46,648 nt of DNA, taken from a virus. The notes under the pieces are model-generated. The model was given only the letters and a program-made list of their open reading frames with translations, was not told where the DNA came from and searched no databases. Made by a program: the position numbers and the translations under genes. This document shows positions 12,768 through 45,978 of this stretch, piece by piece. Positions within the stretch are counted from its first letter, which is position 1; the number at the start of each line of letters is the position of its first letter. The stretch is from positions 1 to 46,648 of IMG/VR virus record IMGVR_UViG_3300037502_001380; one strand, 5' to 3'.

Positions 12768-13208
12768 TTATGCTTTGCGGTTTAACCTGCGATAACCTAA
12801 CACTCTGTCTTTAGGAAACGCAGCAATGTTAACCTGATTACTCTGATTACCACCTAGCAAGAATACATGTGTAGCATTCTCTCTGATGAAGAATCCCACG
12901 TGTCCTGTAGTAGCATTAATGTTACCTCTCCACAGCACTACCACATCGCCTAACATGGGAGTTTCTACAACATTGCCTTTGTGCAACCACATGCGTGCTA
13001 GTGCTGAACCATGCCCCTGATTGAAATGTTCATAACCAGCTTCTAGAGCAATACCGTTTACAAATGCTGAACACCAAGGTATTTCATCTGCTTTAGCCCA
13101 CGGCAAAAGGTATTGAATCCATTTCACAATGGTAGGGCTGTTCTTAGCCTCAGTAGCTTGTTCTGTAATACCGTAGTATTTCAATGCGGTTTCGATTAAC
13201 TTTGTCAT
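12768..13208 (-). CDS. Endolysin, NlpC/P60 or CHAP-type amidase (TIGR02594-like)
   Basis: This 146-residue enzyme has the cysteine-peptidase triad pattern of the TIGR02594 family: IPWCSAFVNG with Cys46, GHVGFF with His103, and LGGNQSNQV with Asn121. The linking motifs are also present: GSALARMWLH, MLGDVVVLWR and a final VLGYRRLN. Such proteins cleave peptide cross-links in peptidoglycan. It has no signal peptide or transmembrane helix, so it needs a holin or another route to the periplasm. The start overlaps the phosphoesterase stop by 4 bp, so they are co-translated. The family call is strong; lysis role rather than tail-associated wall degradation is inferred from small size and lack of fusion. 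Confidence 0.88.
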   Translation of the reverse strand: MTKLIETALKYYGITEQATEAKNSPTIVKWIQYLLPWAKADEIPWCSAFVNGIALEAGYEHFNQGHGSALARMWLHKGNVVETPMLGDVVVLWRGNINATTGHVGFFIRENATHVFLLGGNQSNQVNIAAFPKDRVLGYRRLNRKA

Positions 13209-14977
13209 GCTAGTTCTGCTTTTACTTTTATTTTTTCAATGTCTTTACCACCACTTGTTTCTCGTTCATGGTCTATGTGCAACCAGACACCACCTAATGA
13301 TTTAGGAGGATGCCCTTTTTCTATTGCCCAGCCATTGCCTTCTGTGTACTCATCTTTGTATGTGCCTAGTTTGAGGTGTAGCTGTTCTGCCATAGTCTGT
13401 TTACCAGTAATGTTATTTAAATGTGCGCGTACAATAGGAAATACCCATCTATCATGTGTATTCTGCGTAATGACCACGCAACCATTTCTTCTAACTACCA
13501 ACGTACCATTGTCTACATTTACACACCAGACCTTACCAGAATAAGGTACTACCTTATGTTTGACTTTTGACATTATTGTAGTGCTTTTGGTAGATACATT
13601 TAACCTGTTTACACCACGCTTGTCTAATTCATAATACAGTGTAGACTTTCTACCTACTTTAATACACATAGACTGCAATACAGATAAGTTTTCGTCATTA
13701 GTGCCGTATAGCACATAAGAATCATGCGTCTCTACAGAGTGACCATCTGCATACCTGTATTCGTTAAGCACCAATTCACACTGCCTTGAATTTAAGAAGT
13801 AGTACTTGTTTGAAAAGTTTTTACCGTCTAGTTGCATTTTATTTTTTAACAAGTTGCTAGCTTCAACAGTCAAACCAATCTTTACAGAATTGTTTGCGCC
13901 TCTTATACCTACGTTGTGTTCTAACCCTGCTTCTTTTAATAATTGACTTACTCTGTCTATCTTACGTTGCTTTCTAAAATGAAACCTGATATGGTTGCCA
14001 TCATAGGTACCATCAGACACTACCCAAGCAGCCAACTTCAAATACTTGTCGTCAATATCTACAGTATACTGATTAAAGTACTTACACGAGTTAAAAACAC
14101 TAACATGACTCTTGTTGACAAATTTGGCCATAGTACACTTAGCTATTTTCTTTGCTGTATTCAAGTACACCATGCCGTGTTCATCTGTAGTCATTATATC
14201 TACACCTTTGTGTTGTACATGTATCAACTCTTTGTAGTCGTCATAGATATGAATAGAATTTACTTTCTGATACTCCATAGCTCTGGTCTCTAAATTCATT
14301 GTCGCTACTCTGGTATCTTTTGTAATGTCTTCATATCGTATCCAACCATTCTCAGTAAGTATCTCTGTTTCTTCGTCAAAGCAATGTCCAGATACTACTA
14401 TATCTGCATCGGGAAGATATACTGCCTTTCTAGACGCTTGTATAACATCCTTGGTCACAGGCCCACCACCACCATAACCATGATGATAAGACATGTTTAC
14501 GATTCTTGTACTAGTACCTCTAACTACATTAAACAACACCCAGCCACTATACGCACCTGTTAGACAACCAACCCCTTGTGTGAAACGATATATTATATCG
14601 GTTTCTTGTCTTTTTAATAGGGAACTTTCATGGTTGCCTGGACTTACATACATTATATTCTGTGCGTAAGGTTTAAAGTAATCTATAGCATCGTCTACAA
14701 TCTTGTCTAAGTAGTTAGCTACATTATGTTCTGGTCGTATACCAGCTTTACTTCCTCTTGGGTCATACTTACCTTGCATAGCGCAAAACAAATCACCAAA
14801 GATTAGTATGCCAGCGTTTCTCGTCATTGCTTCGTCTAAATGTCGTTTCAGCAAATCTCTGTCACAGTGCGGATTATCCCAGTGTACATCAGATAACAGT
14901 AAGAATGTTTGTCTCTCATTAGACTTTACTTCAAACTTAATCTTGCAAGTGTACGGTGTTAGCATCTCTGCTGTCAT
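13205..14977 (-). CDS. Calcineurin-like metallophosphoesterase interrupted by an intein
   Basis: The 590-residue precursor contains all five metallophosphoesterase motifs once the insert is removed: LLLSDVHWDN (Asp30, His32), IFGDLF (Asp62), VSPGNHES (Asn115, His116), SYHHGYGG (His165/166) and GHTH, whose GH (197-198) is separated from its TH (507-508) by a 308-residue intein. The mature protein would be about 282 residues, normal for SbcD/YfcE-like phosphodiesterases acting on DNA ends or small phosphodiesters. The substrate is unknown. The unspliced protein lacks the last metal-ligand motif in place, so activity should depend on splicing. It lies directly upstream of the endolysin (4-bp overlap). 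Its start overlaps the end of the small coiled-coil gene by about 40 bp; ATG 14965 is an alternative start. Confidence 0.9.
   Translation of the reverse strand: MTAEMLTPYTCKIKFEVKSNERQTFLLLSDVHWDNPHCDRDLLKRHLDEAMTRNAGILIFGDLFCAMQGKYDPRGSKAGIRPEHNVANYLDKIVDDAIDYFKPYAQNIMYVSPGNHESSLLKRQETDIIYRFTQGVGCLTGAYSGWVLFNVVRGTSTRIVNMSYHHGYGGGGPVTKDVIQASRKAVYLPDADIVVSGHCFDEETEILTENGWIRYEDITKDTRVATMNLETRAMEYQKVNSIHIYDDYKELIHVQHKGVDIMTTDEHGMVYLNTAKKIAKCTMAKFVNKSHVSVFNSCKYFNQYTVDIDDKYLKLAAWVVSDGTYDGNHIRFHFRKQRKIDRVSQLLKEAGLEHNVGIRGANNSVKIGLTVEASNLLKNKMQLDGKNFSNKYYFLNSRQCELVLNEYRYADGHSVETHDSYVLYGTNDENLSVLQSMCIKVGRKSTLYYELDKRGVNRLNVSTKSTTIMSKVKHKVVPYSGKVWCVNVDNGTLVVRRNGCVVITQNTHDRWVFPIVRAHLNNITGKQTMAEQLHLKLGTYKDEYTEGNGWAIEKGHPPKSLGGVWLHIDHERETSGGKDIEKIKVKAELA
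13460..14383 (-). other. Intein with LAGLIDADG-type homing endonuclease domain
   Basis: The insert covers residues 199-506 of the precursor. It begins with Cys199 in CFDEETEILTENGW (block A) and has VDIMTTDEHGMVY with the T-x-x-H of block B at 264-267. It ends VWCVNVDNGTLVVRRNG then VVITQN (blocks F and G). The terminal Asn506 is followed by Thr507 as the +1 nucleophile. The usual penultimate His is Gln505. The central part has two LAGLIDADG-like helices, LKLAAWVVSDGTY (Asp322) and VLNEYRYADGHS (Asp411), so the endonuclease may be active. Removing the insert restores the uninterrupted motif VVSGHTHDRW, which is the best evidence that splicing occurs exactly here. Confidence 0.93.
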
Positions 14978-16746: not shown

Positions 16747-19700
16747 AGTAACATGTTATTATTGTAGGCGTAGTATACACCCTGGTTCCGTAATTAGTTG
16801 AAGCCGTTAAATCTTTAAAATTAGTAGGCCATTGTACTGTAATCTGAATGGTGTTACTAGCATTTTGTATATGAAACGCATATATACCTCCAGTAACAAA
16901 GTTACTTACCGTTACATTGGATATGTTAGTTGTAGAATTGTTTGTAATTCTGTAAATACCAGATGACCTATAATTAACATCCCATACAATTGGGTTGGCA
17001 GTACTTGCTGTATACAAACTTGGAGTCTGTCTTGTGTAAGCATCTGTGGATGTAGTATTGTTATTAAATAGCACTAAGCCATTACTGTTTACCGCGCCTA
17101 ACCCAGTACCACCCTCAGATACTGGTATTGTGTTTACTACAGTATAAGCAGCACCTGTACCTTTTATATACCCAGTTGCACTGTTCAGACCAGTGCCGCC
17201 ATTTGCAACAGGCAATATACCTGTTACACCAGGAGTAATATTTGCACTACCATCAAAAGATGCAGCTGTAGTTGAACCTAAATTAGTTTGAATAGTTCTA
17301 GCTGTGGTCAGTGTTGCTGCACTACCATTAGTGTTACCAGTACCGCCATTTGTAATAGGTATAGTACCAGTTATAGCTATAGTAGGGTTGCCACTGACGC
17401 CATCACCATTAGTTACTGAAATATTTGAACCACCAGTAATAGTTCTAGCGGCTACAGTACCAGCACCAGTTCTTGCAATCAGTCCATTAGTGCCTAAGTT
17501 ATGTAGTGCTAATGCCTGGCCAGTCAACGCAAAAGTGTGTGTTGGAGATACCGAACTTATAGATATGCCAGCACCCTGCGTAAATGTTTGAACAGATGCA
17601 GATAGTCCATTTAATGATGTCAACCCTGTTGCACCACTACCACCTTCATCTGTGCCTGCATACCACTTTGAACCATCCCATTTCAATACTTGGCCTGTAG
17701 CAGAACCTATTAAAGAACTAATTTCACCAAGACTTGCACCACTACTCGTATTTCTAAGTAATAGCTGATTCGTATTTGAGGCGATTGCTGGAGGTGTACC
17801 TTTTAAAAACAGACTTCCTGCTGGTAGGTATGTACCTAAAGTAGCGCTTACTCCTTCCCTAGCAGCTCTTCCTATTGTAATAGTATTATCTCCGTTACCC
17901 ACAGCTCCAGCACCTATCACTATCATATTTGTTGCGTTATTTTTTCCTGGATACGCAGCAGCACCTATATACACACTTTCAGATGAATTTGTTACCTCCG
18001 TGCCCCATGTTACAGTTTGATATCTTCCAGCGTTCCAGCCTATTGCCACGTCAAAACCACCAGTAGTTTTAGCATATTGTACACCATAGCCTATACCAAC
18101 ATTAGATCGACTATTGGAATTAAAAAACGCCCCAAATCCTATGGCGACATTTTCTTCGCCAGAATTATTGTAAAACATTGCTTGAGAACCAATTGCAACA
18201 TTTTGATAGCCTGATACATTTACTCCAAGAGTTTGATTACCGACACCTACATTATCTGAGCCAATAGTATTGAGTTGCAAAGACCTACTGCCAATAGCCA
18301 TATTGCCAAATCCTGTTGAATTGTTAAATAGCGCTCCTCCCCCCAAAGAAACGTTATAGGAACCTTGATATGTTAGTGTAGACCATGTACTTGATTGACC
18401 ACCATTTCCTATCCATATATTATCTCCTTCGCTACCAAGTGCATAATAATTATTTATATTGGTAAGAAATCCATTAGTATTCACCGCCAACATCGTAGCC
18501 TTCGCCGTACCTGTTACGTCAAGTCTCTCAGTTGGTGCAACAGTACTACCAATTCTCATGTTACCTGCTGGAACGTAAGTTGCAGTTGTACTACTATTGC
18601 CTATTGTTGTAGTGTTAGAGCCATTGCCTGAGTTTGATGCACCTGAAGTACCAGAGCCTATTACAATCTCATTAGTTACATCTGTAGTGCCAGCACTCAC
18701 ACCACTATATGCACCTATGTATATACCACGTGTCAACGCTCTGTTATTACTCACTGTGTTGGCTGCGCTTCTACCAATAGCGACATTTGATGATATGTCT
18801 ATGTTGCCTGCTGTACCTGCTGTACCAAATGTCTGTAATGTTCCTGCGCCAATAGTAACATTGTTAAGTACACCTGTCCTATAACGAGGTAAATTAGGAT
18901 TAGGGTCAGTACTTGCTAAAGAAGCATTTCCAATAGCTACATTAGCTTCCCCTTCTGAGTGTCGCATGGCATTTACACCAACAGCTGTATTTTCATTACT
19001 GTTTTTAGTAAATATCATTGCACTGCCGCCAATAGCTGTGTTACCTGCAACTGAGGCAGCCACGTCTTTTACAAGTGAGTTTAGTGCAGAGCCACCAATG
19101 GCTGTATTATTACCAGTGCCACCACCTGTAGTCACTATAGCATAGTTTCTTAAAGCTGAAGCACCAATTGCTAAGTTGTTAGAAGCTATATCATTTGTTA
19201 AAAGTGCATTTGCACCAATAGCTACGTTGTTTGTGCCTGTTGTATTTGCATTAAGTGAGTTATTGCCAAACGCTAAATTTGTTGTTATACCACCTGACCC
19301 TAACCCAATACGCGCACCATTTATAAGTGCATCACCAGCAACATCAAGTTTAAAAGTTGGTACTTTACCTATACCAATATTATCAGACGATTCTTGTATA
19401 ACTGAATTGCCTAGAGCAGTAGTCGTAGTCCATTTTGGAATCTTATTCACATCGCCAGTACCAGTTACAGTACCACCGCTGTTAGTAGATGATATAGTTA
19501 AGTTATTTCCTGTCTGAGATAATGATACATTACTACCAGCAGTGATAGTGACATCAGTTCCAGTAGAAGAATTTAACGTTACAGGAGATGTCGTACCTGT
19601 AAATGACAAGTCGGTATTACCAGTTATTACAAGACTGTTACCTGATAATCCGCTAGGTACACTTACTTCTTGTACAACGCCATTATCGTTTACACCTAGT

Positions 19701-31408: not shown

Positions 31409-33925
31409 CTATTGTGCTTTAGACTTACTTTCTTTAAGACGTACCACTTTTAAATCATGGTCTCTGTCTAACTGCTTTTGTTCTGCTTCAAAGGCTTGTT
31501 GTTCCCTCTGACGCTGTATCAAATCGTTTTCTTGGTTCTTGTCAATGTCGTACTGGTTAGCCAATGACTGTGCTTGTATCTCTGCTTGTTCTTTGTTGCT
31601 GATACGTTGTTCACGAATACGCACAAGGTCAGCATCCAACTTCAATTCAGCACGGTAAGCTTCCATCTCCATAGCAGCCTTTTTCCGTTCTTCAAGTATT
31701 TGCTGTTGCTGTTGTTGTTGTTTTTGCAACCTCTCCTGCATCTCTCTGGCTTCTACTGCAATAATCTTGTGCATCTCTTCCACACTCTGAGCAGATGTCA
31801 ATGCTTTTAATACAGAAGATACTTGTTCTATACCTTGACCTGCATTCTGTGCAAAAGAGAATACGTTTTGCAACATATACTGAAAATACATTTGTTCCCT
31901 ACCATTGTCAAACAGATACAGACCTAAGTCTTCTATTTTGGATAGTTGTTCTCGTTGCACTATGAAGAACTCCTTAGTACCATCAGGTAACACGTATTCC
32001 ATTTCAAAACCTTTCAGATTGTCATTGTCTTCAAGGTAGTTGTTGATGTAAGTACGTAGATTGATAAGGTGTTCATTCAATGCTTTAGCCCACACCCTGT
32101 CAATAGTAAAGAATAACGTCTGCGTAGCTAGACCAGATTGCATCAATGCTTGTCTGTTGTCACTCACATTTGTGTTAGGCACTACAGTAGCTTCCCTCTG
32201 TGGAGAGATACCCATACGCATACCTGTCTCTACATCTAACATCTGACAAAACTGTTGCAAGTTCATCAGTGCAGGTGTCGTATCTACAGTAGCGTAACTG
32301 ATACCTGCTGACCTAGTAGGTGGTGCAGGCAAACCATTTGAACTCCTACTACCAGAATAAAACCTGGTACCTGTCTTCCTTGCAATAATGTCTGCTCTTA
32401 GTGCTGGGTCAACATCCATTTCTCCATTGCGTTCATGGTCTGTGCCAATCATGTCTGGTATCTGGTCAACGTCTACAATGCGTTCTTGACCTACATACTT
32501 AGCCATCTCCCTATCCTGCAACCTCTTAGCTGCCATGTACTGAAACGCACTAGGCATAGCACGTTGTACTAGGCTCAACCATTTAGCATTGCGGTTATAT
32601 AATATGGTGCCTTTGTAGCTTAGTTCAAACTTGCTGAATGGATTCTCGCCGTAATCAGGTTGAAAAGGTACTTCTCTAAAATCTACTAGTACATCAGTGC
32701 CTAATCGGGTAACTTCATAACGCCTAGGTATCTTGACAATTTCCGCTTCCATCTCCATACCTGACTCATCTACCCACACATATTTCTCACTTTCTTCAAA
32801 CCAACGATTAGTGTATTTGACTTTAGATGCAGTCTCAGGAATGATGTCTGCATCAGAGCGCAATGTAAGATGTGTGTTGTATTCGTCTTTTACTTTTACA
32901 AACATCACTTCTTGAAAAGCCCTAAATTCCAAATGCACCCTTTGCATAGTCTGACGCAAGTTGTAATTAGTAAGTTGCGTACCTTGGTGTGTACCTATCC
33001 CTTTTCGTCTAAACTCGCCTAGTGATTCCAACATGCTGTAGTACTTGGCATGGTCAAAGACAGGTTTCTTGATGTGTGCTTCTGTCATTGGATTCATAGA
33101 ATAACCATAGTCCAAAAGTTTCTGTATGTCTTCATCATCTAACCTATTCTGATATTCTTGCAAAGCATCTGCTACTGTAATCTCATCCCAGTAGAATACA
33201 AAATCGCCTTTTTCAATGTCAGCTACTTCTGGGTTCTTGTTGAAACCTACATGCAAAGGATTCAACACTTTGATAGCTGGTCTGCCATTTTTCCAACCTA
33301 CATGCAAGAACACTCTACTCACAGTAACCAAGTCTTCCAAGGTCTCTGTTTTCTTCAACCTCACATCTTGGTCTAGCAGTGTGTACTGCATTAACTTGTT
33401 GTAGATGATTTCAGATTCAGAAGAGAAGTTGCGCACTTGAATATCTTTAGGTTCTAATGTGGTGCGCATTTGTTCTATCATCTGGTTGGCCTGTTGTTCA
33501 TCCATGCCTTCCATGACAGCTTGTTGTTTTTGCACAAACAAAGCCAGTTCTTCATTGACGCTAGCTTTAATGACATTCAACAGTTCTTCATTCTTATCCC
33601 TGACTGCTTTGGCAGTGAGCAACATGACTTTGTGGTTCAGGCCCCTAGACAATAAGTCTCCTTTCAACACTTCTATCTTGTTGGGTATAGGGTTGTATGG
33701 TACTAACGTTTCTTCAGTAGCACCATATTCTTCTAATGAACCACAATAATAGGCAATGTCGTCTTTGAACTTAGTCAAGTCGTTGTTGACAAATTCATAT
33801 AGACGTTTCATTTCCTCATAGTCTTCAATGATAGGTATGATGGTGTGTGGTACATATCTGTCTAGTTGATACTTGTACCACTCTTTGTCTTTCTTTTCTT
33901 CATTTAGTCTTATAGTATCTCTCAT
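31409..33925 (-). CDS. Portal protein
   Basis: An 838-residue protein starting MRDTIRLNEEKKDKEWYKYQ. The clip/stem/wing layout is suggested by a central beta-rich region (VFLHVGWKNGRPAIKVLNPL; HVGFNKNPEVADIEKGDFVF) and later long helices (TLFFTIDRVWAKALNEHLIN). The C-terminus is a long coiled coil with a run of Gln (RLQKQQQQQQQILEERKKAA) and ends in charged sequence; such tails line the internal barrel. Size, position right after the terminase (26-bp overlap) and before the scaffold-like gene match the crAss-like portal of about 800 residues. Confidence 0.82.
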   Translation of the reverse strand: MRDTIRLNEEKKDKEWYKYQLDRYVPHTIIPIIEDYEEMKRLYEFVNNDLTKFKDDIAYYCGSLEEYGATEETLVPYNPIPNKIEVLKGDLLSRGLNHKVMLLTAKAVRDKNEELLNVIKASVNEELALFVQKQQAVMEGMDEQQANQMIEQMRTTLEPKDIQVRNFSSESEIIYNKLMQYTLLDQDVRLKKTETLEDLVTVSRVFLHVGWKNGRPAIKVLNPLHVGFNKNPEVADIEKGDFVFYWDEITVADALQEYQNRLDDEDIQKLLDYGYSMNPMTEAHIKKPVFDHAKYYSMLESLGEFRRKGIGTHQGTQLTNYNLRQTMQRVHLEFRAFQEVMFVKVKDEYNTHLTLRSDADIIPETASKVKYTNRWFEESEKYVWVDESGMEMEAEIVKIPRRYEVTRLGTDVLVDFREVPFQPDYGENPFSKFELSYKGTILYNRNAKWLSLVQRAMPSAFQYMAAKRLQDREMAKYVGQERIVDVDQIPDMIGTDHERNGEMDVDPALRADIIARKTGTRFYSGSRSSNGLPAPPTRSAGISYATVDTTPALMNLQQFCQMLDVETGMRMGISPQREATVVPNTNVSDNRQALMQSGLATQTLFFTIDRVWAKALNEHLINLRTYINNYLEDNDNLKGFEMEYVLPDGTKEFFIVQREQLSKIEDLGLYLFDNGREQMYFQYMLQNVFSFAQNAGQGIEQVSSVLKALTSAQSVEEMHKIIAVEAREMQERLQKQQQQQQQILEERKKAAMEMEAYRAELKLDADLVRIREQRISNKEQAEIQAQSLANQYDIDKNQENDLIQRQREQQAFEAEQKQLDRDHDLKVVRLKESKSKAQ

Positions 33926-40102: not shown

Positions 40103-40198
40103 GTATGCGACATAAACCAAATTGCTTACCTTCGCATAAGTTCATTGACATATTGGTCATCTATCCCCCTACATTAGCAGATGGTTTCTATTCCCCCC

Positions 40199-40645
40199 CT
40201 GTCTGCGATTCATAGTTGTAAGCAGATTGTCTGCGATTCATAGTTGTAGATAGATTGTTCACAGACTGTCTGCAATTCATAGTTGTAAGATGAACAATTG
40301 CCCATGTATGCAAACTGTCTGCAATTACGTAGTTGCGAAAGAATTGTTCACATATCTGAAACTAACTGTCTGCAAGTGCATAGTGGTAAAGGTTAATCAA
40401 ATCAATTGTCTGCATATCTTCAACAAGCTGCCTACAGTTACATAGTTGAAGATTCATAAGTCCAGACTGTATGCAATTCATAGTTGTGAAAAGTTATACG
40501 ATAACTGTCTGCATATATATAAGGTGTGAAAGGTACGAGGTCTAAGCTGTCTGCTAATACACAGTACTATGAAAGAGGTACAGGGGTTTAGGCTGTTTAC
40601 TGGTATAGAAACTATAAAAAGGATACGGGGGTTTAGGCTGTTTGC
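40199..40645 (+). repeat. Degenerate tandem repeat array of about 12 units (iteron-like)
   Basis: Units begin with CTGTCTGC or a close variant at 40199, 40227, 40266, 40315, 40366, 40406, 40428, 40467, 40505, 40547, 40593 and 40638, spaced 22-51 bp. Better-kept units continue AATTCATAGTTGTRAA (units 1-4 and 8), others keep only the head or a degraded ATAGTTG. Weak relatives occur near 40013. It lies in an otherwise empty 640-bp stretch (40103-40742). Irregular period and divergence argue against CRISPR. Iterons of a replication origin or binding sites for a phage regulator are the best guesses. Confidence 0.6.
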
Positions 40646-41271: not shown

Positions 41272-41501
41272 ATTTTCACTTCAAAAGAGCGCCTACATTC
41301 AATGTAGGCAAACAATCAAGGTGAGAATCCTTGAAAGTTTTTGAAGGTTTTTGCATGGCTTATATCTGTACTTGATACAGTATTAGTGCTTATATAAAAC
41401 TTGTCGCGAGAGGTAGGCGTGATAACCTTATTCACTTCAAAAAATAGCCAGAGTGACGTACTGGCTAAACCTAAATCCTCTAAAATCGTTGAGGTGATTG
41501 T

Positions 41502-41780
41502 ATGACAAACGAACTAGTACCAGCCATCACTCAGGAAGAGATAGAAGTGAATGAATGGTGGTTGTCACCGTTTTGGGCTCCAGGGTTCAACCCTGCAAAT
41601 CAAAACAAAACGCATGAAGAAAAGTGCGCCTTGTTAGATGAAAAGATAGGACCCGTAATAGATAAGGTAGTCCGCTTTTCGCTGTACGGCGAAGAGTTTG
41701 ACGCCATAATAAAAGGAGTATACGGGTCTTATTTGGTTCTAGACAGAATCAAAGAGATTCCATATTTTCACGAACTGTAG
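41502..41780 (+). CDS. Small unknown acidic protein
   Basis: A 92-residue protein MTNELVPAITQEEIEVNEWW then LSPFWAPGFNPANQNKTHEE, ending in a beta-like KVVRFSLYGEEFDAIIKGVY and VLDRIKEIPYFHEL. No family recognised. Its leader is unusual: TTCACTT at 41431-41437, then a 7-bp hairpin TAGCCAG/CTGGCTA (41445-41451 / 41461-41467), with the ATG 64 nt after the element. The mRNA 5' region is therefore structured, and the element is more distant than for later genes. Confidence 0.6.
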   Translation: MTNELVPAITQEEIEVNEWWLSPFWAPGFNPANQNKTHEEKCALLDEKIGPVIDKVVRFSLYGEEFDAIIKGVYGSYLVLDRIKEIPYFHEL

Positions 41781-41786
41781 TCACAT

Positions 41787-41873
41787 GGCAAGGTAGTGCA
41801 AGATGCACAAGCCTAACGAAAGGTTGCGAAAGAGAGACCCTCTATTAGCTGTGGTAAAAGTCCACGCCTTGCC
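41787..41873 (+). ncRNA. tRNA-like structured RNA
   Basis: A 7-bp acceptor-like helix GGCAAGG (41787-41793) / CCTTGCC (41867-41873) encloses GTGCA/TGCAC (41796-41808), a 5-bp arm AGCCT/AGGTT (41810-41825) with a 6-nt loop, a possible long variable region, and an arm TGTGG/CCACG with a 7-nt loop (41850-41866) abutting the acceptor strand exactly as a T-arm does. Total length 87 nt fits a class II tRNA. The loop TAAAAGT is not a normal T-loop and the anticodon loop is the wrong size, so it is either degenerate or a mimic. No CCA follows. Confidence 0.4.
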
Positions 41874-41883
41874 AGTGATTAAT

Positions 41884-41966
41884 CCTACCTAAACTTGGTA
41901 GGCTACATACTGATTACAGTAGGTATGTAGTAAGTACTGTAGGAACATATAGTGATACACTATGTT
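41884..41966 (+). ncRNA. Run of three adjacent hairpins
   Basis: CCTACC/GGTAGG (41884-41889 / 41897-41902) is followed without spacing by CTACATAC/GTATGTAG (41903-41910 / 41923-41930) and then AACATA/TATGTT (41944-41949 / 41961-41966). The first resembles the hairpin at 42633-42661 in sequence as well as shape. No coding potential seen. Confidence 0.35.
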
Positions 41967-41988
41967 GCCGTCAATGTATCAGTATTTT

Positions 41989-42038
41989 TGCTCTAACAGT
42001 AATGGAATGTTAGTGTGAGTTCGAGTCTTACTGGAGCA
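41989..42038 (+). ncRNA. Minimal tRNA-like element with canonical T-arm, no anticodon arm
   Basis: Acceptor-like TGCTCTA (41989-41995) pairs fully with TGGAGCA (42032-42038) allowing one G-U. The T-arm is canonical: GTGAG, loop TTCGAGT, CTTAC (42015-42031), joined directly to the acceptor strand. The only other arm is AACA/TGTT (41995-41998 / 42008-42011, sharing one base with the acceptor) with a D-loop-like GTAATGGAA. There is no room for an anticodon arm in 50 nt. It lies 6 bp before the tandem RNA array. Confidence 0.45.
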
Positions 42039-42043
42039 ACAAA

Positions 42044-42168
42044 CCTTTGCGTTTTAGTTACACGACAACAGTATACTACCACTTAGTAGAAAGGTAGAGG
42101 TGGTTAACCACTGAGGGTATAGTCCATAAAACCTGATGAGGACATGTTGTGTAGCTAAACGCAGAGGG
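42044..42168 (+). ncRNA. Tandem structured RNA, unit 1
   Basis: The 5' strand (42044-42070, beginning CCTTTGCGTTTTAGTTACAC) pairs almost throughout with the 3' strand (42145-42168, ending GCTAAACGCAGAGGG), a basal stem of over 20 pairs. The head has CTACC/GGTAG, a hairpin GTGG-TTAA-CCAC, the string GAGGGTATAGTCC, and CCT-GATG-AGG. Flanks AAACCTTTGC and AGGGTATA are shared with units 2 and 3. No ORF or Shine-Dalgarno is present. Confidence 0.55.
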
Positions 42169-42177
42169 TATAAAAAA

Positions 42178-42304
42178 CCTTTGCAGTTTAGTTGTGATGT
42201 TATGCAGCGAGACCTTGGAGATGTTTCTCCCGTCTATGACCTGTGAAAATCCCAATGTGGTATAAGTAGTATAAAAGATACTATATCACAGCTAAACGCA
42301 AAGG
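42178..42304 (+). ncRNA. Tandem structured RNA, unit 2
   Basis: The basal stem pairs CCTTTGCAGTTTAGTTGTGAT (42178-42198) with ATATCACAGCTAAACGCAAAGG (42283-42304), closely similar to the unit 1 stem but with compensating differences. The head differs completely: nested AGAC/GTCT and GGAGA-TGTT-TCTCC (about 42210-42235), then AGTAT/ATACT near 42268-42282. It begins 9 bp after unit 1. Confidence 0.55.
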
Positions 42305-42315
42305 ATATACACAAA

Positions 42316-42417
42316 CCTTTGTACAAACCTGGCTTGTCAAACAGTTGTACTACGATACAGTACATAACAGTAAGAATAGTAAATTCTATTGAAGTCTGTT
42401 ACAACTGAGTGCAAAGG
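42316..42417 (+). ncRNA. Tandem structured RNA, unit 3
   Basis: CCTTTGTAC (42316-42324) pairs with GTGCAAAGG (42409-42417) and an inner 8-bp helix CAGTTGTA/TACAACTG (42342-42349 / 42400-42407) continues it. The head contains GTACT/AGTAC and AATAG/CTATT hairpins. Shorter than units 1 and 2 (102 nt), same flanks. It ends 9 nt before the TTCACTT leader of the next gene. Confidence 0.5.
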
Positions 42418-42451: not shown

Positions 42452-42622
42452 ATGAAAGAAAAAGAAATAGATTTTGCCTTATGGGCATTCGTGTCCATAA
42501 TGGCTCTTATTATTGGCGTGAAAGCTGCAAATTGCGGCGAGTACGCTATAGCATTTATGTTTTGTTTTATCGCTGTTGTGTCCGCATCTTGCATGTGGAT
42601 ATGCAGAGATATATACAAGTGA
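42452..42622 (+). CDS. Small membrane protein, two transmembrane helices
   Basis: The start at ATG 42452 (MKEKEIDFALWAFVSIMALI) is chosen because the TTCACTT element (42426-42432) and an A-rich tract precede it as for neighbouring genes; an upstream in-frame TTG at 42389 would run through the tandem RNA. The 56-residue product has two hydrophobic segments, about 9-24 and 31-50 (YAIAFMFCFIAVVSASCMWI), with a short polar turn. Small two-helix phage membrane proteins may be holins, superinfection exclusion factors or defence inhibitors; no motif decides. Confidence 0.6.
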   Translation: MKEKEIDFALWAFVSIMALIIGVKAANCGEYAIAFMFCFIAVVSASCMWICRDIYK

Positions 42623-43074
42623 TTTTGAGAATACATACCTAAAGAAAACTGGTAGGTATGTTAAAATGTGTATGCTACGCGCTTGAGTTTACCTCATCTG
42701 CTGTAGTTCCCAGACAAGTACACATCTGAAAAGGCTGCTTCGCACTCCAGCAACGATGGAAGTTAACGTTGCAATAACAAGAGAAAACTTCCTGCACCTA
42801 TGCGATGGTGCAAGCAATTGAAATCAATAGGCTAGTTGCTACCTACCCTAACATGATGAATCTGATTGCTACAAAACTTCTTCAACGGTGGTGTAAAACG
42901 TTGAAAGGAGAATCAAGAGAGAGACACCTGCTTACTGATTAGTGGAAGGTATATGCTAAGTGCATTTTACCGAGGTAACTATCTAAGTATCTACAGAATC
43001 TTTAGTCAACCTGCTGCTTCCAATGCACCTAATCACTGACGAAAAGAGAACCTTGTAGTTTTTGTTTGTATTAT
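42623..43074 (+). ncRNA. Non-coding stretch with several strong hairpins
   Basis: About 450 nt without a credible ORF. Helices seen: ACATACCT/AGGTATGT (42633-42640 / 42654-42661), ATGTGTA/TACACAT (42666-42672 / 42719-42725) enclosing CTAC/GTAG, GCAACG/CGTTGC (42750-42755 / 42767-42772) competing with GGAAGT/ACTTCC (42758-42763 / 42787-42792), TGCACC/GGTGCA (42793-42798 / 42807-42812), TTCAACG/CGTTGAA (42881-42887 / 42899-42905), and TGATTAG-TGGAAG with CTTCCA...CTAATCA (42936-42948 / 43017-43035). Whether these are one RNA or several is not clear. Confidence 0.4.
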
Positions 43075-43943: not shown

Positions 43944-44639
43944 ATGCTAGAAGAAATTCTAGAAGAAATCTTCAAAAACATGGTCTTTGTCAAAGGTGGT
44001 ACATTGATGATGGGCCGCACTCCAGAACAAGGAATCAATGTTTTCCCAGGAGAACGTGATTACGATGATTTTGTAGCCTGGGATAGTTATACAAAGCATA
44101 TACACCAAGTAACGGTATCGGATTTCTATATTAGTAAGTATCCGGTTACGCAGAAACAGTGGCGAGAGGTGATGAAACACAAAGCGCAGTATGTAAGAAC
44201 CTGCGACAATTGCCCAGTACAATATGCAACCTATTATAAGATTGAAAAGTTTCTGGCTAAGATAAACAGAAAAACGGGTCTGAAATATCGCTTACCTACA
44301 GAGGCAGAATGGGAGTTTGCAGCACGAGGTGGTTTGAAAACCAAAGGATACAGGTACGCAGGCAGTAATAACTTGTATGAAGTTGCTTGGTATAAAGGTA
44401 ATTCTGGGAACAAAATACACCCAGTGGGACAAAAGAAGCCTAATGAGTTAGGGCTTTACGACATGACTGGAAATGTTGATGAGTGGTGCGAGGACATAAT
44501 AGATTATTCCAAATATAAAGGAATTCCTATCCGGGCATACCGTGGTGGTGACTATTGTAGCCCTATCATAAACTGCCGCATTGTGTCTCGCTTTATTTGC
44601 GGGTCTTCAAATGGCAATGGATTTCGTTTGGTATTATAA
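43944..44639 (+). CDS. FGE-sulfatase/SUMF1-fold protein with DGR-like C-terminus
   Basis: A 231-residue protein with the FGE-sulfatase (C-type-lectin-like) signature: MVFVKGGTLMMG, HQVTVSDFYISKYPVTQKQW, YRLPTEAEWEFAARGG, HPVGQKKPNELGLYDMTGNV-DEWCED, then YRGGDYCSPIINCRIVSR and NGFRLVL. The last 35 residues match the variable-region pattern RGG-x-W/Y-x(6)-C-R-x(3)-R-x(n)-GFR-L/V of retroelement-diversified proteins, with many NNC/NNT codons between the fixed positions. Catalytic Cys spacing of true FGE (C-x4-C) is not kept (C-x5-C), so it is probably a binding protein. The leader is TTCACTT at 43921 and ATG 16 nt on. Confidence 0.78.
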   Translation: MLEEILEEIFKNMVFVKGGTLMMGRTPEQGINVFPGERDYDDFVAWDSYTKHIHQVTVSDFYISKYPVTQKQWREVMKHKAQYVRTCDNCPVQYATYYKIEKFLAKINRKTGLKYRLPTEAEWEFAARGGLKTKGYRYAGSNNLYEVAWYKGNSGNKIHPVGQKKPNELGLYDMTGNVDEWCEDIIDYSKYKGIPIRAYRGGDYCSPIINCRIVSRFICGSSNGNGFRLVL

Positions 44640-45309: not shown

Positions 45310-45978
45310 ATGGAATTGATACACATTGAGGGCAACGAAAAAACCAAGTCATTCTACTTGGGCAAATACCTTGTCACCCAGCAAGAGTGGCTTGCAATTG
45401 CAGGTACTTCTGATTGGGATTTTAAAGGTCCTCGCTTTCCGATAACTGATGTTAGCGTTGCAGAAATATTAGGTTTTTGCAATCTGCTATCTCAGTCTGA
45501 AGGTTTGACACCTTGTTACTATGCAGACGACAAGTTCACAAAAGTATACGGTAAAAAAGGTAAAGACCAATCTTATCCTGATGAAGTATACTGGGACAAA
45601 GCTGCTAACGGATACCGACTGCCTACTGAAGATGAATGGGAATACGCATTAGAAGGAGGTAAAGAAAGAACATTTAAATACCGTGAAATGGACATTGATG
45701 ATGTTGCATGGTATGCTGAAAATAGCAATTCAGAAATTAAGCCAGTAGGTCAAAAGCTACCTAATGAATTAGGGCTTTACGATATGATAGGTAATGTACT
45801 AGAGTATAGCGTGATTTGGTCAAAGAAAAACATTGTAGAACACTTACGAATACAAAGTTCTCCGTTTGAATTGCTAAGCAAACGTTATATGAAACATTCA
45901 TATAATACACGTATTGAGCCGTATTTACATTTTGGTCACTTTACTGTTGGTTTCAGGGTAGCTAAAAACGCAGAGTAA
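45310..45978 (+). CDS. Second FGE-sulfatase/SUMF1-fold protein, diverged paralogue
   Basis: A 222-residue protein with FYLGKYLVTQQEWLAIAG, PITDVSVAEILGFCNLLSQS, a YRLPTEDEWEYALEGG block, and IKPVGQKLPNELGLYDMIGN. The last two are nearly identical to the protein at 43944-44639, also at DNA level (CTAATGAATTAGGGCTTTAC), so the two genes are duplicates. Its C-terminal part has lost the RGG and Cys pattern and reads RYMKHSYNTRIEPYLHFGHF then VGFRVA, keeping only the final GFR strand. Probably a binding protein like its paralogue. No TTCACTT leader; the start lies 2 bp after the upstream stop. Confidence 0.75.
   Translation: MELIHIEGNEKTKSFYLGKYLVTQQEWLAIAGTSDWDFKGPRFPITDVSVAEILGFCNLLSQSEGLTPCYYADDKFTKVYGKKGKDQSYPDEVYWDKAANGYRLPTEDEWEYALEGGKERTFKYREMDIDDVAWYAENSNSEIKPVGQKLPNELGLYDMIGNVLEYSVIWSKKNIVEHLRIQSSPFELLSKRYMKHSYNTRIEPYLHFGHFTVGFRVAKNAE

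Follow-up and report, generated by a model that had tools for sequence, protein, structure and literature searches.

The sequence analysed here, which we call the window, is a 46,648-base virus fragment from IMG/VR. Its TerL is 30.6% identical, at 92% coverage, to that of Cellulophaga phage phi14:2 (Crassvirales, Steigviridae), and by the membership criterion that we used, a crAss-like terminase, portal and major capsid, the window phage is assigned to the Crassvirales. The minus strand carries the structural genes, which extend to about 39.4 kb; small genes without known function begin on the plus strand at about 40.7 kb. Between the two gene blocks, at 40190-40560, lie irregular direct repeats around CTGTCTGCAATTCATAGTTGTAAG, which look like replication-origin iterons or a regulatory region. 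Elsewhere in the window we noted a phosphoesterase gene (13205-14977, minus strand) that is apparently interrupted by an intein (CFDEETEILTENGWIRYEDI...VITQNTHD), and two closely spaced genes for proteins with FGE-sulfatase domains (43944-44639 and 45310-45978), the first of which is 81-82% identical in contigs L123 and L124. A noncoding segment at 41313-41443 is about 95% identical in the same two contigs (L123 2042-1951, L124 2251-2126), even though the terminases are only 73% identical. It is followed at 41446-41501 by a two-hairpin leader (AGCCAGAGTGACGTACTGGCT, then CCTCTAAAATCGTTGAGG) right before the ATG of ORF 41502; the first stem of this leader is compensated in L122 and L123, and its loop GTRACGTA and second hairpin are conserved.

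The array under study, consisting of three RNA units, sits on the plus strand between ORFs 41502-41780 and 42452-42622. The other features described here for this intergenic region are on the same strand. It begins with a closed structured element at 41780-41879 (TGGCAAGG...CCTTGCCA; fold z of -4.2 for 41785-41880), followed at 41907-41985 by a second (ATACTGAT...ATCAGTAT; fold z of -2.8 for 41880-41985) and at 41986-42041 by a tRNA-like element that ends about 6 nt 5' of the first unit. This last element has a complete acceptor (TTGCTCTA/TGGAGCAA) and T-arm (GTGAG-TTCGAGT-CTTAC), but the space is too short for a D-arm plus an anticodon arm; ARAGORN finds no tRNA or tmRNA in the window and Rfam none either, so that neither calls it. 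A tRNA-like element stands in the equivalent place, about 6 nt before unit G001d, in the related contig G001. Downstream of the array, the ATG of a small ORF (42452-42622, 56 aa, no Pfam or PHROG match) lies 35 nt past the third unit. Beyond it, at 42633-42725, is a second conserved structured RNA, an ACATACC..GGTATGT hairpin and then TGTGTATGC...GTAGTTCCCAGACAAGTACACA, which is also present in L123 and L124 with its stem compensated (ACATATC/GATATGT).

The preliminary description of this locus reported three tandem units of 125, 127 and 102 nt with spacers of 9 and 11 nt, and the sequence confirms these coordinates: unit 1 (U1) at 42044-42168, unit 2 (U2) at 42178-42304 and unit 3 (U3) at 42316-42417. 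All three are closed by CCUUUG/CARAGG. U1 runs from CCTTTG to CAGAGGG, its last stem pair ending at 42167, and both U2 and U3 run from CCTTTG to CAAAGG. U1 is of the type that we call A, has no P2 hairpin (defined below), and consists of the 5' arm CCTTTGCGTTTTAGTTACACGACA, a head at about 42067-42145 and the 3' arm TGTTGTGTAGCTAAACGCAGAGG; in U2, also A-type, the 5' arm CCTTTGCAGTTTAGTTGTGAT and the 3' arm ATCACAGCTAAACGCAAAGG enclose a head at about 42198-42284. Stems of at least 20 bp are common to U1 and U2. The claim that differences between them mostly keep pairing holds for the inner pairs P16-P20, which read ACACG/UGUGU in U1 and GUGAU/AUCAC in U2, with 5 of 5 pairs changed and 5 of 5 still paired. 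The U1 stem covaries with relatives as well as with U2. U3, which is B-type, comprises P1 (CCTTTGTAC/GTGCAAAGG), an insert hairpin (ACAA-ACCTGGC-TTGT), P3 (CAGTTGTA/TACAACTG), a head at 42350-42399, a bulged A and a 3' GGGG tail. The 16-17 nt insert separates its basal stem from its inner stem, so the three units are not plain duplicates; U3 is no simple copy of U1 or U2. The three heads are completely different from one another. Folded alone, U1, U2 and U3 reach -47.8, -46.0 and -26.3 kcal/mol, with z-scores of -5.9, -6.8 and -2.3 against dinucleotide shuffles.

Known RNA families do not account for these units. Rfam 15 gives nothing above the gathering threshold in the window, in agreement with the earlier remark that no known phage RNA family suggested itself, and a permissive scan yields chance matches only, all outside the units. 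In L155, which contains units G001b-d, only tRNAs exceed the threshold. U1 contains CTGATGAG and was considered as a self-cleaving ribozyme, for which we found no hammerhead or other ribozyme match. Our searches of openly available papers turned up no description of the scaffold.

We collected relatives of the window phage through terminase and capsid searches. Syntenic contigs had terminase identities of 84% (G001), 73% (G002 and G003), 71% (G006) and about 55% (others), and the matching intergenic regions of G001, G002 and G003 contain units of the same kind. G001 has four copies, some after a true tRNA-Arg and another after a tRNA-like element; one of them, G001c (98499-98645), is a relative of U2.

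The 3' arm of U3-type units, the 18-mer TTACAACTGAGTGCARAG, served as the key for a wider search. It matches more than 119 IMG/VR viral stretches, and only 8 of 84,980 bacterial and archaeal genomes (one per species). The paired 5' arm CAGTTGTAA, or a near variant, lies 22-220 nt upstream in 121 of 121 assessed viral units and is missing from 7 of the 8 genome matches, L315 alone having it; the family appears to be specific to viruses. For comparison, the listed matches of the 15-mer AGCTAAACGCARAGG (the A-type 3' arm) outside the window had no convincing paired 5' arm; they are thus chance matches and serve as a negative control for the 18-mer search. A match in G008 was dropped from the family because it has no 5' arm. 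Because a covariance model of the joined arms (R1) misses units with long heads, including those of the window itself, we used direct pairing scans, which gave 158 matches on the same strand versus 40 on the opposite strand and 20 in reversed sequence. A search of 50,697 deposited phage records for the 5' scaffold found nothing, and BLASTN of the window region against deposited phages gave no match. The proposed family, with its common stem and unrelated heads, extends well beyond three units, and the window units belong to a large and apparently undescribed RNA family of uncultured crAss-like phages. U3 is, by its 3' arm, a member of the branch that is most widespread elsewhere, and this arm defines the widespread family.

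The phages that carry units are diverse. Carrier contigs reach 127 kb. One of them, L254, includes a terminase, and this TerL, 38-40% identical to those of gut crAss-like phages, places it in the Crassvirales. Only 7 of 30 carriers have a capsid that matches the window, which indicates that they span distant lineages; Crassvirales status would accordingly be that of the classified carriers, not of every one.

The scaffold consensus is AAUGCACCA-nn-CUCAC-UUCCCAAGG-GUGAG-CAGUUGUAAU [head] AUUACAACUG-A-GUGCAGAGGG, made up of a basal stem P1, a hairpin P2 whose loop is usually UUCCCAAGG, a stem P3 (CAGUUGUAA/UUACAACUG) that holds the head, and a 3' GGG. P3 of the AGUUGU/ACAACU type, with the 3' strand ARCURARYGCARAG, lies under the head in all three window units. 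P1 in the form UUUGCAC/GUGCARA or its covariants occurs in U1-U3, G001b-d, G002a, G003a, L278 (UGCGU/ACGCA) and L289 (UGUGU/ACACA), and is missing from G001a. P2 with the UUCCCAAGG loop is present in most IMG/VR members and absent from U1 and U2; U3 has a different small hairpin.

The preliminary description had made compensation among aligned relatives one of the points on which its reading would stand or fall, and the stem mutations of relatives are compensated in P1, P2 and P3. For eight arms from three phages, in an alignment that is gapless once bulges and the U3-type insert are removed, 15 of 20 pairs have changes on both sides and 92% of cells are paired, compared with 73% in shuffles and 31-43% when the arms are slid; this count leans towards structure, because some members were found by pairing. 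G001b and G003a were also recovered by a sequence-only search with the 3' strand. Among 22 diverse arms, 15 of 19 P1/P3 pairs change on both sides with 92% paired, while 0 of 500 shuffles did as well and slid alignments were 28-41% paired. Compensation in P1 extends beyond the search key (UGCGU/ACGCA, UGUGU/ACACA, UGCGC/GCGCA, CCAUUG/CAAUGG). P2 is the cleanest covariation test, since it lies outside the key: both sides change in each of its five pairs, 98% of cells are paired, and the loops are UUCCCAAGG and, in two units, UUCACAAGG.

The P2 loop also covaries with the 3' end. Of 79 distinct units with a CCC loop, 75 end in the G tail (GGG), an association with a Fisher p of 6e-4, and a CAC loop (L263, L282) is accompanied by a GUG tail. 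It would seem that the loop CCC and the 3' GGG base-pair, in a probable loop-tail pseudoknot. In many units without a UUCCCAAGG-type loop, P1 starts with CC or CCC and is able to pair with the same GG or GGG; in U1, U2 and U3, P1 is lengthened by CC/GG instead of the loop-tail pairing.

Long palindromic arms, at which heads are swapped, and the iteron-like repeats nearby could also be read at the level of DNA, as inverted repeats acting as recombination sites or origin hairpins. We consider this highly improbable and largely refuted. Stem cells contain 44 G-U against 6 A-C combinations on the coding strand (p 3e-8), which indicates selection on the plus-strand RNA; moreover, the unpaired loop is conserved, loop and tail apparently pair, and the strand of the units follows that of the genes. 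These comparisons establish the scaffold, as a predicted fold, to be a conserved, strand-specific RNA with compensated stems P1, P2 and P3.

About 119 heads of 22-164 nt fall into 92 clusters, and no common motif rises above shuffled heads. In six independent pairs (L219/L275, L221/L274, L194/L206, L193/L201, L226/L294 and L211/L220), the same or a near-identical head is found on different P1/P2 scaffolds. Recurring heads are mostly about 93-99% identical. A given head can precede genes of different families, and genes of one family can follow different heads. At the level of sequence, this shows that heads are exchanged modularly across phages and are not linked to the neighbouring gene.

Single units or small arrays of them occupy the gaps between genes (median gap 587 nt), and the flanking genes are on the same strand for 107 of 112 units downstream and 93 of 103 upstream. 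A downstream start codon follows within 80 nt in 39 of 112 units, U3 included (ATG 35 nt on), which would also fit a leader element. The heads might accordingly be riboswitch-like leaders, sensing a ligand or protein and controlling the next gene. We regard this as quite unlikely: no start codon lies within 80 nt of most units, many of which are in arrays, and one head precedes different gene families while one family carries different heads. Cis-regulation of one neighbouring gene was rejected on the same grounds, as heads do not stay with particular genes.

The main competing account is that the scaffold alone matters, as a cis-acting intergenic element that stabilises or insulates polycistronic phage mRNAs or marks their cleavage, much as a sealed 3' end or an RNase III site would, with heads as neutral filler that drifts and recombines. 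The position of units between co-directional genes, with the 3' GGG sequestered in P1 or in the P2 loop, agrees with this, as do the units close to start codons. So do the heads, which share no motif and fold only modestly better than mononucleotide shuffles (median z about -1.1). We also asked whether heads are antisense to their own genome, and complementarity to their own contigs was not above control. Of the earlier reading, the family with a shared stem and variable heads is strongly supported, and small RNAs with distinct targets would be a candidate role only. However, filler need not recur, mostly at 93-99% identity, on different scaffolds and beside different genes; this recurrence speaks against neutrality, and arrays hold several side-by-side units with different heads. 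Some head hairpins are compensated, for example in L211/L220 (CCGUA/UACGG to CCACA/UGUGG). Across related heads, only 15 of 27 changed pairs keep standard pairing, four of them by double changes; these numbers are at most suggestive of pairing retained within heads. On balance we find the scaffold-only account doubtful, though one to be reckoned with.

The explanation that we favour, at about an even chance, is that the units are modular noncoding RNA cassettes, co-transcribed, trimmed to stable RNAs and acting in trans through their heads. P1, P2 (its loop CCC with the 3' GGG) and P3 would form a compact, end-sealed base, or in U1 and U2 one long P1-P3 stem would do so instead, and the base would display an independent, exchangeable head of about 20-165 nt. 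Each phage would carry several cassettes on the coding strand, grouped into intergenic RNA arrays that often include tRNAs or tRNA-like elements. They would be transcribed together with adjacent genes or tRNAs and then cut or trimmed, the sealed 3' end would give a stable RNA, and each head would bind a different host or phage factor. The function of the scaffold as a processing handle, which had been put forward for the window, is no more than a suggestion. It draws on tRNAs or tRNA-like elements that stand 5-6 nt from certain units (in L238, a tRNA follows the unit at about 5 nt) and on the hatchet ribozymes that some contigs have upstream. Of 40 unit contigs tested, 5 have a hatchet about 1-1.5 kb upstream of a unit and on its strand, too few for a general processing device. 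They are separate elements, and the units do not match the hatchet model (RF02678).

As to what the heads would do, hypervariable, swapped modules are typical of arms races, and for that reason our guess is a role in host defence or host RNA metabolism. More tentatively, and with less confidence than in the cassettes themselves, the units could make up an RNA arsenal of the Crassvirales, in which an end-sealing scaffold presents effector heads that are interchangeable and number in the dozens. Recombination would spread and reshuffle the heads, and each of them would neutralise or recruit a host factor of its own. Such an arsenal would parallel, in RNA, the exchangeable protein modules of tail fibres or of anti-defence. 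Few known viruses match the crAss-like phages in abundance, and their accessory genome is largely unexplained. A constant scaffold with hypervariable, swappable heads would be a new, protein-free way for a phage to diversify function. The high conservation of the scaffold means that any metatranscriptome can be screened for the family and that its members can be retrieved as one class, which makes its function directly testable.

Several known systems resemble the units in part. The stable RNAs C and D (species 1 and 2) of phage T4, whose role is unknown, are encoded in a tRNA cluster. They too are small noncoding RNAs among tRNAs of a lytic phage, but they are two single RNAs with no shared scaffold, no exchangeable heads and no evident sequence relation to the units. 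In flaviviral xrRNA, a three-way junction with a pseudoknot seals the RNA end; the likeness is one of architecture only, for xrRNA belongs to another virus world and has another sequence, and in the units the sealed end would be the 3' end. GOLLD and ROOL are structured noncoding RNAs that occur in phages. They are hundreds of nucleotides long, constant throughout and present in Rfam (PMC12286853), where the units have no match. CRISPR arrays and ToxI share with the units a constant repeat with a variable part, or tandem RNA units; however, the units have no spacer-like regularity, are about 100 nt or longer and have their own fold. No Cas or ToxN gene was found among the neighbours searched, and a ToxIN type III toxin-antitoxin system was rejected because the heads are unrelated where near-identical repeats would be expected.

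RNA anti-CRISPRs (Racr), small structured phage noncoding RNAs that are solitary mimics of CRISPR repeats (PMC10651486), come closest to the possibility that the units are inhibitors of defence, mimicking host RNAs as CRISPR-repeat mimics or as decoys for RNA-sensing nucleases, with the scaffold as stabiliser. Like Racr, the units would be small noncoding RNAs of viral genomes, and their hypervariable, swapped heads fit an arms race. Unlike Racr, they carry long variable heads, and the conserved 3' arm, which occurs once per locus, is part of no repeat array in the 84,980 genomes. The scaffold is thus no CRISPR repeat. We judge this specific role unlikely.

The same intergenic regions contain further elements. 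The hatchet ribozymes mentioned above (77-82 bits) are at L193 5635-5767, L197 2975-3112, L217 46-208, L292 3088-3239 and G012 33058-33196, and their association with units may point to the setting in which this ribozyme naturally occurs. Another RNA element with a variable head, a CUCAAUAA-hairpin and CACCAGUUUCUUUGAU [head] AUCAAAGUUUUAGGUGU, is often directly 3' of a unit (G003 75150-75030 and G008 18560-18395, both minus strand, L203, L275 and L292). A recurrent element ACTCTCATCCAA...AAGGGTTGCAACCTTGTGAGAGT was seen at L217 889, L247 11660 and G008 17710-17810 (minus strand). Finally, tRNA-like genes in G001 (101497-101602), L172 (near 1-600) and L238 have a good D-arm, T-arm and acceptor, with an odd anticodon and variable region.
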